A stretch of DNA of 64,000 nucleotides from Pedobacter sp. AK013 (GTDB lineage: Bacteria; Bacteroidota; Bacteroidia; Sphingobacteriales; Sphingobacteriaceae), in assembly GCF_014205835.1 (NCBI RefSeq), contig NZ_JACHCQ010000010.1, positions 1 to 64,000 on the forward strand, in the 5' to 3' direction. The position numbers were made by a program, and so were the translations under genes. Below, piece by piece: positions 10,595-61,974 of this stretch. Within the stretch, counting starts at the first letter, position 1; each line of letters opens with the position of its first letter. A model generated the notes under the pieces. It made no database searches. It saw only the letters and a program-made list of their open reading frames with translations, and was not told the origin of the DNA.

Positions 10595-11141
10595 TAGGAT
10601 TCGATTCAGTTGTTGGGTTTTCAAGCAGGTCCAATTTTTTCAACAGCAGATCTCTAATACGCTTTGCGTCATCAATTGCGATGCCCGAAATATGGATATG
10701 CCCCGTTTGTCCGCCTGCGGTAAATAGCTGTAATGACCCTAATTTGTACATTCTGGAAAAAATTCCTTCATTTAATTCGATATGCTGAATCCTGTTTAAA
10801 GGAACAATTGTTGTGGATTCCGCGATAATTCCACTCTTATACATTACATCATGTGCGCGGATAGCATAGCCCCGTTTCTTAAAACTGGCGCGATAGAGTA
10901 GCAAAAAGATGGCTAAAAAAACCAGATAAAGCGGAATAATCCATTTTGCATTTGGTTTTAGTTCATCAATAAAAAATAGGAGTATACCAATAGTTATTCC
11001 CACCAGGCCAAAAAAAATCAACAGATTAATACAGATAATTTTCCAGTAATCGGGATGCGGTCGGTTTAACTGAATGTCTTCGTATTTTGGAAGAAGATCA
11101 AGATCAATAACTTCATTGGTGAAAACGGTCTCAGTAGTCAT
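10587..11141 (-). CDS. PH-domain (bPH2) membrane protein, YdbS-like
   Basis: A 184-residue protein with two transmembrane helices (IICINLLIFFGLVGITIGIL and IIPLYLVFLAIFLLLY) followed by one bPH2 module (YKSGIIAESTTIVPLNRIQHIEL ... GSLQLFTAGG ... ISGI). It is the small partner of a YdbS/YdbT-type pair: its stop codon overlaps the start of the larger protein by 8 bases, so the two are very likely translated together and may form one complex. It probably sits in the inner membrane with the PH domain facing the cytoplasm. Function is not established. Confidence 0.8.
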   Translation of the reverse strand: MTTETVFTNEVIDLDLLPKYEDIQLNRPHPDYWKIICINLLIFFGLVGITIGILLFFIDELKPNAKWIIPLYLVFLAIFLLLYRASFKKRGYAIRAHDVMYKSGIIAESTTIVPLNRIQHIELNEGIFSRMYKLGSLQLFTAGGQTGHIHISGIAIDDAKRIRDLLLKKLDLLENPTTESNPNE

Positions 11142-60015: not shown

Positions 60016-60867
60016 TTATTTTACAAATTCTGAGATAGAGATGTTATGCTCAGATTCTACTTTGGCAATTTGTTTTTTGTTTTCTCTGAACAGATTTTGG
60101 AGTGTACCTAGTGAATCTTTAAGGTAAGAGATGGATAACATGTATGAAATCCTGCTTTTGACCTTTTCGGCAAGCAACAATTCGATCAGGATTAGTGCGA
60201 TTAAAAAAATATAATGGGTAAAGATCAGCTTATTGGTATTCTTGCTTAAAGCAGGCAATCCTAAAGATATTAAAATCATATCTACTATTAGCGGAATACC
60301 GATAATGACAATAATTGAGATCGCATTTGCTTTGAGTCTAATGCGTTTTTCAGCCAGTTTTATCTGATCGTTAAAAGCTGAAAATTTATTGTTAAGGGGA
60401 GTATTTCTGTTGTTTTGTTGCTGTTCTAGCTTCTGAAGGTCTTTCCCATATGCTATATCTATTTTTCTAACCTGCTCTACTATAGCTGATTCTGCATTGT
60501 TAAGCTTTTCTTGATCCTCAACAATAGATTCTTGCTCAGCTATAATTTTGTCCATCACCATCAAATCATCGGGTATGCCATGACGTAACTTTTGCTCTGC
60601 GGCAACAATACGGTTATCTAATTGTTTAAACTGTCTTTTAAGTTCAGCAATTTCTTTATTATAATGTTCTTTTTTAGCAGCGTAACTGTTTTCCAAACTT
60701 TGCAGTTCGGATGTGTACTCGAAACTTGCCAACAACTGTTCATTGCCGGCAAAACGCTGATAAAGCCCGGTTAATGTGATAAAGAGCACTTCTGTTGATT
60801 TTTCTGGATTAGAAAGATCATTTTGGTAGGCTTCCAGATCTTTTTCTGATAATGAAGGTATGGGCAT
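60016..60867 (-). CDS. Coiled-coil membrane protein of unknown function
   Basis: A 283-residue protein with no recognised family. Residues 50-180 are heptad-rich and charged (SLENSYAAKKEHYNKEIAEL, LKRQFKQLDNRIVAAEQKL, AESAIVEQVRKIDIAYG), typical of a coiled coil. Two transmembrane helices follow (AISIIVIIGIPLIVDMILISL and YIFLIALILIELLLAEKV), then a short amphipathic tail. It has no signal peptide, so the coiled coil is probably cytoplasmic, anchored at the inner membrane. It stands alone between the dehydrogenase and the small-RNA locus. Similar architecture occurs in phage-shock or scaffold-type proteins, but no specific match is recognised. Confidence 0.65.
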   Translation of the reverse strand: MPIPSLSEKDLEAYQNDLSNPEKSTEVLFITLTGLYQRFAGNEQLLASFEYTSELQSLENSYAAKKEHYNKEIAELKRQFKQLDNRIVAAEQKLRHGIPDDLMVMDKIIAEQESIVEDQEKLNNAESAIVEQVRKIDIAYGKDLQKLEQQQNNRNTPLNNKFSAFNDQIKLAEKRIRLKANAISIIVIIGIPLIVDMILISLGLPALSKNTNKLIFTHYIFLIALILIELLLAEKVKSRISYMLSISYLKDSLGTLQNLFRENKKQIAKVESEHNISISEFVK

Positions 60868-61111: not shown

Positions 61112-61119
61112 TATATTTG
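61112..61119 (+). promoter_or_regulatory. -7 element of the small RNA locus
   Basis: TATATTTG, an exact TAnnTTTG match, with transcription expected to start about 61125. No good TTTG at -33 was found. Confidence 0.5.
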
Positions 61120-61120
61120 T

Positions 61121-61211
61121 ACCAAGCAAGGGGTGAGAGCCTTGCATCAATCTTTGATTGAGAGCGTTAATTTAGATAAGGTTACAACATTAATTGTTGT
61201 AACCTTTTTTT
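61121..61211 (+). ncRNA. Candidate three-hairpin small RNA
   Basis: From a -7 box to a strong intrinsic terminator lie about 90 bases with no open frame. Hairpin 1: GCAAGG (61126-61131) pairs with CCTTGC (61140-61145), loop GGTGAGAG. Hairpin 2: TCAATC (61147-61152), loop TTT, GATTGA (61156-61161). Hairpin 3: AAGGTTACAACA (61178-61189) pairs with TGTTGTAACCTT (61195-61206), loop of five, followed by seven T, a perfect terminator. Three hairpins in a row, with a promoter and a terminator but no gene, is what a small regulatory RNA looks like; a premature-termination leader of the next gene (61363) is the alternative. Does not match SRP, tmRNA, 6S or TPP riboswitch as far as I can tell. Confidence 0.55.
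61178..61211 (+). terminator. Strong intrinsic terminator of the small RNA
   Basis: A perfect 12 bp stem (61178-61189 with 61195-61206) with a five-base loop; T-run 61205-61211. It lies about 150 bases before the Nudix start codon, so it belongs to the upstream RNA. Confidence 0.9.
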
Positions 61212-61362: not shown

Positions 61363-61974
61363 ATGCCAAGAAATTATAGAATTTATATCAACGATAACAC
61401 TTTGTTTATATCAGATTTTTTGCCAGAGCAAAAAGAAAAAATCCAACAATTAGAATTTCAGGATTTCAATCTGCAAACGTTCTACAAAAAACTAAAAAAT
61501 GGTTCTAAAAAGAGTTATATTTTCTTGACAAAAAATCCTCAGGAAACCTTTAAAAAATTGAAGAAAGATTGCACCATTATTAAAGCCGCTGGTGGCCTGG
61601 TAGAGAGTGCAAATGGTAATTTTTTGTTTATTTTTAGGAATAAAAAATGGGATCTACCCAAAGGAAAGCTAGAAGAAGGTGAAAAAATGAAGGAAGCCGC
61701 TGTCCGTGAGGTAGAGGAGGAGTGTGGAATCAGGGTTTTTAAGCGCGAAGAAAAACTTTGTAAAACCTATCATGTTTACCCCATTGGTACTAAAATGGTG
61801 ATCAAGAAAACCAACTGGTACAAAATGAAGGTTAAAGGCGAACCAAAATTGATACCGCAAAAAGAGGAAGGCATTGATGAAGCAGTTTGGCTGGATAAAA
61901 ATCACATTTCGCCGGTAGTTAAAAATACTTTTCCATCAATTATGGATGTGCTGAGGGCTGGCGGGATTTTGTAG
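61363..61974 (+). CDS. Nudix-domain protein with N-terminal extension
   Basis: A 203-residue protein. About 75 residues of unassigned mixed alpha/beta sequence (NYRIYINDNTLFISD ... FYKKLKNGSKKSYIFLTKNP) precede a Nudix domain: AAGGLVESANGNFLFIFRNKKWDLPKGKLEEGEKMKEAAVREVEEECGI. The Nudix box GKLEEGE...REVEEECG is intact with both metal-binding Glu pairs. Because it is the KWDLPKGKLE type, it resembles MutT/NUDT3-like diphosphate hydrolases. Substrate (a modified nucleotide, polyphosphate or capped RNA) cannot be told. It stands alone behind the small RNA locus; the N-terminal extension may be a regulatory or recognition part. A CGTCAT-type repeat fragment follows at about 61990. Confidence 0.85.
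   Translation: MPRNYRIYINDNTLFISDFLPEQKEKIQQLEFQDFNLQTFYKKLKNGSKKSYIFLTKNPQETFKKLKKDCTIIKAAGGLVESANGNFLFIFRNKKWDLPKGKLEEGEKMKEAAVREVEEECGIRVFKREEKLCKTYHVYPIGTKMVIKKTNWYKMKVKGEPKLIPQKEEGIDEAVWLDKNHISPVVKNTFPSIMDVLRAGGIL

Follow-up and report, generated by a model that had tools for sequence, protein, structure and literature searches.

The window analysed here, a 64,000-nt stretch of the genome of Pedobacter sp. AK013, very probably contains at positions 61112–61211 of its forward strand a real small RNA gene, of which this genome has about a dozen copies; a transcript has not been observed. The copies, whose transcription is inferred and for which no target class is claimed, most likely belong to a multicopy family of trans-acting sRNAs that is also carried by phages and is comparable to FopS of Bacteroides. 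Overall, we favour, with some reserve, a free-standing sRNA gene belonging to a multicopy family of Pedobacter and related genera and acting in trans. As read from the letters, members of the family have a near-invariant 18-nt core, which is predicted to be largely unpaired, with an intrinsic terminator after it, and many have one of three putative promoter types. Other copies have covarying hairpins in front, and the core is shared by phages of several kinds.

Sequence and predicted fold of the element

The element opens with the box TATATTTG (61112–61119), which matches TAnnTTTG and which we take to be the Bacteroidetes housekeeping −7 promoter box of that consensus; an earlier note on this DNA had already pointed to it. 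A transcript of ~88 nt (61124–61211) is predicted from the promoter spacing in other copies and from the terminator, and the start of the RNA is inferred to lie ~5 nt past the box. Hairpin 1 (61126–61145) pairs GCAAGG (61126–61131) with CCTTGC (61140–61145) around the loop GGTGAGAG (61132–61139). Hairpin 2 (61147–61161) pairs TCAATC (61147–61152) with GATTGA (61156–61161) around a TTT loop, and its 3′ end shares two bases with the start of the conserved core GAGAGCGTTAATTTAGAT (61160–61177), a mostly single-stranded stretch of 18 nt located directly before the terminator. The intrinsic terminator (61178–61211) is composed of a 12-bp stem, AAGGTTACAACA (61178–61189) with TGTTGTAACCTT (61195–61206), a 5-nt loop, and a T tract that runs to 61211. 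All these features are on the forward strand. The TTT loop and the perfect 12-bp terminator can be read in the letters as the earlier note had them. Its three short hairpins followed by a terminator have to be recounted, the hairpins and the terminator being present but the terminator hairpin itself being the third. The stretch 61160–61177, which recurs in the genome and in relatives, had escaped it.

The predicted folding energy of the element is −29.9 kcal/mol, as compared with −16.2 ± 2.83 kcal/mol in 200 shuffled sequences, none of which folded as well (z-score −4.84). The gap was correctly described as free of genes, as no ORF of at least 60 aa overlaps the element. Its neighbours, both outside the RNA, are a 283-aa ORF of unknown function upstream (60016–60867, reverse strand; no Pfam match over the cut-off) and a Nudix gene downstream (61363–61974, forward strand; PF00293, E 2.3e-13). 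The proposed absence of an Rfam class was borne out by a search with Rfam 15 (4227 models), in which nothing reached the gathering score anywhere in the window; eight sub-threshold matches to the element (E 0.58–8.9) were all to unrelated families. Pedo-repair, listed as RF01715 in the part of PMC2864571 that was accessible, had no match in the window in this search. At 11 further loci with other copies, Rfam gave only the tRNA and tmRNA of phage contig L263.

Copies of the core in the genome of AK013

The genome of AK013 was searched with the pattern GAGAGCGTTAATTTAGAT at up to three mismatches, the reversed pattern being the control, which gave 22 and 8 matches, respectively. Twelve of the 22 are copies with their own strong terminator within a few bases, 11 being exact and one having one mismatch, and the terminators differ among them. 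The other 10, with two or three mismatches, have no such terminator when read by eye. The 10-mer GAGAGCGTTA alone gave 19 matches, 12 of which precede terminators and share the remaining eight bases, 11 of them exactly; since these 12 continue with the rest of the core, its conservation is not merely an artefact of the query. The two-hairpin form of the window element (window form) is found in three of the 12 copies.

One copy (L040; C5 near 137965) is surrounded by phage-type genes, namely an exonuclease and phage families without an assigned function, and the hairpin ahead of its core is similar to the one in phage contig L261; this is probably a prophage copy. Another (L045) retains a lipoprotein neighbour, ending like FPSELGCYE, that is seen in sister genera. 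Three core copies (L037–L039; C3:82358, 84087 and 84397) are located within ~2 kb, with a spacing of 310 nt between two of the copies, and an ORF amid the three presumably encodes a ribose-5-phosphate isomerase, as it reads like one.

Putative terminators and promoters, and the mostly unpaired core

The surroundings of the core were compared in 242 unique contexts (211 cellular and 31 viral), which are not independent, because all were picked by the exact core and orthologues were included. By a lenient test, 231 of the 242 are terminator-like, as compared with 223 of 968 random sites. The 11 contexts that failed have mostly bulged hairpins or short T runs, and phage copy L236 is without a clear terminator. 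The median MFE of the 42 nt past the core is −19.5 kcal/mol, as compared with −4.3 kcal/mol at random sites, none of 1000 random sites being as low, and a run of at least four T is present past the core in 221 contexts. The strand order is the same across copies, the core coming before the terminator.

Three classes of promoter-like sequence precede the core. The first has TAnnTTTG, whose end is 4–5 nt away from the core in all 28 contexts. The motif xGTAWAA, which we assume to resemble ECF-sigma promoters, is placed 6 nt before the core in 16 of 19, all 16 having GAAAC/GTAAC-like letters 16–17 nt further up. The third motif, CGTYTAW, is 6 nt before the core in 55 of 62, with an AATA box 14–15 nt further up in 39. 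As unlike promoters are set at a fixed distance to one base, the RNA should begin GAGAGCG in those copies; in many copies, the core should be the 5′ end of an RNA made from one of three promoter types, as far as can be predicted from spacing. The window form accounts for 56 of the other contexts, and no strict promoter pattern fits 77 of the 242 (52 cellular and 25 viral); of the unclassed contexts listed, many come close to a pattern or are phage copies preceded by a hairpin.

The mean unpairedness of the core is 0.73, as compared with 0.66 for a shuffled core, and it is higher in 167 of the 242 contexts. A paired exception is AGA near the end of the core, which is able to pair with the T tract. 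What defines the gene of a trans-acting base-pairing sRNA, i.e. a free-standing position with a promoter and a terminator of its own, is met here at the level of sequence only.

Covariation and gene neighbours of the window form

In 34 of the 56 window-form contexts, TAnnTTTG ends 10–12 nt before GGTGAGAG; with this spacing, the RNA of the window form should begin at the base of hairpin 1, which would leave the core inside it. Covariation was assessed in 29 distinct window-form sequences against 500 shuffles. In hairpins 1 and 2, 95.9% of cells pair (84.2 ± 0.9% shuffled), 53 cells are changed on both sides (16.9 ± 4.2 shuffled), and the covariation score is 0.461 (0.217 ± 0.017 shuffled), values that were reached in none of the shuffles. 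Two other measures were unremarkable, with 6 double-change pairs vs 4.9 and 13 pair types vs 13.6. Hairpin 1 has 96.6% of cells paired and both-side changes in three of six pairs, and hairpin 2, of which five pairs were counted, has 95.2% and three of five, respectively. Pairing of the hairpins was lost when the partners were slid by 1–3 columns. Conservation of both upstream hairpins among relatives, which had been named as a check, was confirmed by their covariation in this set. The number of copies, the covariation, and the promoters and terminators support the earlier suggestion of a new small RNA without an Rfam family. The invariance of GGTGAGAG proves nothing, as it formed part of the selection pattern. 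UGAGAGC occurs twice in the window form, in the core and in the loop of hairpin 1, and it is inferred that this loop may be a second contact.

The element had alternatively been considered as a regulatory leader of the Nudix gene, which is located on the same strand 150 nt downstream; the order of 283-aa ORF, RNA and Nudix gene is kept at all 24 loci of the window site (own genome and 23 others). However, the 12-bp terminator as well as the 150 nt intervene between the RNA and the gene, and other window-form copies do without it. None of six window-form loci of other species (L029–L034) has a Nudix gene in the ~3 kb examined, nor do the own copies L035 and L043 in ~3 kb, and the 283-aa ORF is also missing from the DNA examined at these loci. 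Among the loci checked, the RNA has a Nudix neighbour only at the orthologous site of the window. Furthermore, the core is found at many unrelated loci, no Rfam riboswitch was matched, and the copies do not lie upstream of one gene, as those of a riboswitch or leader should. A leader role of the window element is unlikely, to the point of being barely tenable, and a free-standing sRNA gene remains the preferred reading.

Distribution among genomes

The element was searched for in 145 genomes of the same genus, 24 of which, the own genome included, have a nearly identical copy at this site. Many partial matches were obtained in addition, a large part of which covered ~61160–61177, the others falling in the terminator or in AT-rich flanks. 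With at most one mismatch, the core was found in 147 of 399 genomes of the family, representing 11 of 25 genera. As counted by hand, all 105 genomes of the own genus were positive, with 2–15 matches each; in other genera, 42 of 294 genomes were positive, for the most part with a single match, and the reversed control gave four matches over the family genomes. Not every match in this count was read for a terminator; the match in genome G326, the sole positive of its genus, is without one and is probably due to chance. The window form was restricted to the own genus, being present in 37 of the 399 genomes, with no match to the control.

Outside the family, 40 of 248 genomes of the class had one or two matches at up to two mismatches, and 27 had a match to the reversed control (row count). 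There were no exact cores in these genomes and one match with a single mismatch (G454), and of 30 outside-family loci, none of the 26 listed has a terminator when read by eye. A scan of named genomes gave at least 119 stretches; among the matches listed, nearly all were from Pedobacter, the rest including Desertivirga and Arcticibacter. Copies in sister genera often have an ECF-like promoter and lie 3′ of a comF-like gene or of a lipoprotein gene ending like FPSELGCYE, and copies in this setting adjoin a response-regulator or glyA-like gene; the names comF-like, response-regulator and glyA-like are our presumption from the sequences.

Two loci (L159 and L191) from records titled 'Flavobacteriaceae bacterium PS02338' have an exact core, all other exact cores found being from Sphingobacteriaceae-type genomes or from phages. 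The name of these records may be wrong.

Copies in phage contigs

The exact 18-mer was found in 31 IMG/VR contigs, the reversed pattern in none; a core variant ending GAA is present in two viral contigs, as compared with 31 for the GAT ending. As judged by a crude ORF map, 29 of the 31 viral copies lie between ORFs, and the other two overlap small ORFs only. PHROGs scans of 25 proteins of these contigs revealed capsid, portal, protease, tail, helicase, and Rep proteins in many; in one batch of 10, four had no match, and some proteins matched only families of unknown function. No host was assigned to the viral contigs.

Contigs L241, L248 and L260 (5.0, 4.5 and 5.6 kb, respectively), all from one metagenome, were identified as microviruses by their capsid and Rep genes, between which TAnnTTTG, the core and a terminator are located. 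In a blastn search of the microvirus sRNA stretch against named phages, 43 records gave partial matches, none of them over more than 80% of the query. The 183-kb phage contig L263 carries a window-form RNA with the full core and hairpins. It is the only one of five viral matches to the window-form pattern with these features, and the other four look like chance. L263 also has a tmRNA gene (tag GTPVYRMAA) and several tRNAs (10698–11056 and 2319–2633).

A tentative reading, for which the support falls somewhat short of even, is that the identical 18-nt RNA core is a regulatory key shared by a bacterial family and its phages and steers the same host target during infection. On this reading, which is held no more firmly for its parts, ~5-kb microviruses, tailed phages and the 183-kb contig would carry a minimal promoter-core-terminator gene or its hairpin variant.

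A few phage copies adjoin tRNA genes. This, together with the occurrence of the 18-mer in phages and in the prophage-like region of L040, would also be compatible with an element acting at the DNA level, such as an attachment site, a repeat of a mobile element or part of a terminator cassette, and with no regulatory RNA at all. Such an element is hard to reconcile with promoters of three types at fixed distance, with compensatory changes in RNA hairpins, or with a single conserved strand order of core and terminator. We consider it improbable and retain an RNA as the inferred product of these genes.

Searches for targets and RNA-binding proteins

Exact antisense sites of 10 nt in the own genome numbered seven besides the RNAs and eight for the reversed control, i.e. 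there was no excess. One of the seven is located at about codon 20 of a TonB-receptor-like ORF (L272), and the other six are unlike start-region targets. In 30 of 56 susC leaders, the mean duplex energy was −9.21, as compared with −9.23 ± 0.64 for shuffled seeds. Among k-mers in 863 leaders, TTAACGC was weakly enriched (8 vs 2.7 permuted); rows of the k-mer table with an sd of 0 are meaningless because of too few permutations. Positions −24 to −11 of an accessory lipoprotein gene (L050 1501–1524; C7:81127–81144), which has an HExxH motif and no Pfam family, are perfectly complementary to 14 nt of the core. This gene was ruled out as a conserved target, as relatives are present in only 14 of 144 genomes of the genus.

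Duplexes of −13 kcal/mol or lower were predicted for 20 of 677 leaders in a first sample from the own genome, as compared with 9.3 ± 4.4 for shuffled seeds (reached in 0 of 30 shuffles), and eight signal-peptide genes were found vs 1.7 ± 1.4. The same test at other Pedobacter loci gave a deficit, with 7 of 735 leaders vs 13.7 ± 7.5 (26 of 30 shuffles reaching this), and a pre-specified replication with own leaders gave no excess, with 10 of 620 vs 9.4 ± 5.9 (86 of 200 shuffles). Therefore, no target class is claimed. Pairing of the core with the rRNA operon was at chance, and no conserved mRNA target of the core was found in the searches made.

No Hfq was detected over the PF17209 cut-off in 151 genomes of the family, with one match below it, while 5 of 14 control genomes were positive; the requirement of an Hfq-dependent sRNA that the genome encode Hfq is not met in these 151 genomes. 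Only one RRM_1 protein was found in the own genome (L404; C5:95670–95882).

The core might be a binding site for a protein rather than an antisense seed, the RNAs binding or titrating a host RNA-binding protein, e.g. RRM_1, and the phage copies acting as sponges. All 18 nt are near-invariant in host and phage copies, the target searches failed, an RRM_1 protein is present in the own genome, and UGAGAGC is found twice in the window form, as would be expected. On the other hand, there are no binding data, and under three promoter types the core is predicted to be at the very 5′ end, which is the usual place of the seed in an sRNA, FopS included. A protein-binding core is a serious rival, albeit one to which we give a minor share of belief, and an antisense seed is retained as the simplest function of the core.

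The gene for the RRM_1 protein is located ~3 kb from the sRNA copy at C5:98651.

Comparison with known small RNAs

By analogy, the RNA would work most like FopS of Bacteroides, and it has not been shown to be FopS. According to the parts of PMC11697453 that were accessible, FopS RNAs are short, have 12–15 copies per genome, a conserved 5′ end, and their own promoters and terminators; a copy is reported in a Caudovirales phage, there is no Hfq-based mechanism, and an RRM_1 protein is encoded in the genome. The same source gives canonical sigmaABfr promoters, susC leaders as targets, and binding by the RRM protein RbpB (PMC11697453). As far as these parts allow a comparison, the Pedobacter RNAs are likewise multicopy and short, with a conserved stretch, own promoters and terminators, a phage copy, no Hfq, and an RRM_1 protein. 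With 12 copies in the own genome, they fit a FopS-type set of about a dozen paralogous short sRNAs with a common stretch and a terminator. They differ in having three promoter types instead of the canonical sigmaABfr promoters, in the occurrence of the core in microviruses, and in that pairing with susC leaders (30 of 56) was not supported. The own RRM_1 protein could play the role that RbpB has for FopS, an analogy for which there are no binding data. None of the 248 class genomes outside the family had more than two core matches at up to two mismatches; it is not stated whether Bacteroidaceae were included, and the letters of FopS were not compared.

In envelope-stress sRNAs of enterobacteria of the RybB/MicA type, which are Hfq-dependent, an ECF-sigma-type promoter sets the seed as the 5′ end. 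The xGTAWAA class with GAAAC/GTAAC is similarly placed so that the core would be the 5′ end; unlike RybB/MicA, no Hfq exceeds the cut-off in 151 family genomes, and no envelope target class was confirmed. GibS of Bacteroides, in what could be consulted of PMC7366714, resembles the RNA in an unstructured conserved 5′ seed part and a 3′ terminator and differs in its length of ~145 nt and in being described as a single sRNA. Phage-encoded sRNAs such as AgvB and IpeX, which act on host regulation according to the portion of a review that was available (PMC12197685), provide a parallel for phage genes for small RNAs. The identical core common to the host and many phage contigs is a difference from AgvB and IpeX as presented there, and a term search did not find 'microvir' in the main text of this review, so far as it was accessible (PMC12197685). 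The letters of the core were not found in the literature searched, and no account of this RNA was found in the literature on sRNA in Pedobacter or Sphingobacteriaceae, subscription papers being mostly outside both searches.

In the mechanism proposed, the RNA would be transcribed and would act in trans, both of which are inferred. Its active surface would be the core, which in the simplest case would pair as an antisense seed with a single host RNA or a small number of them. Through the different promoters on the copies, several signals would feed one regulon, and the phage copies would push the same regulon during infection. If this is true, the RNA would offer a handle on post-transcriptional control in the Sphingobacteriaceae, and it would be remarkable for a single-stranded DNA phage with a genome of 5 kb to keep a regulatory RNA. 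Given a near-invariant core under several promoter types, in the absence of Hfq and in unlike phages, it would become testable which host function phages find worth controlling.
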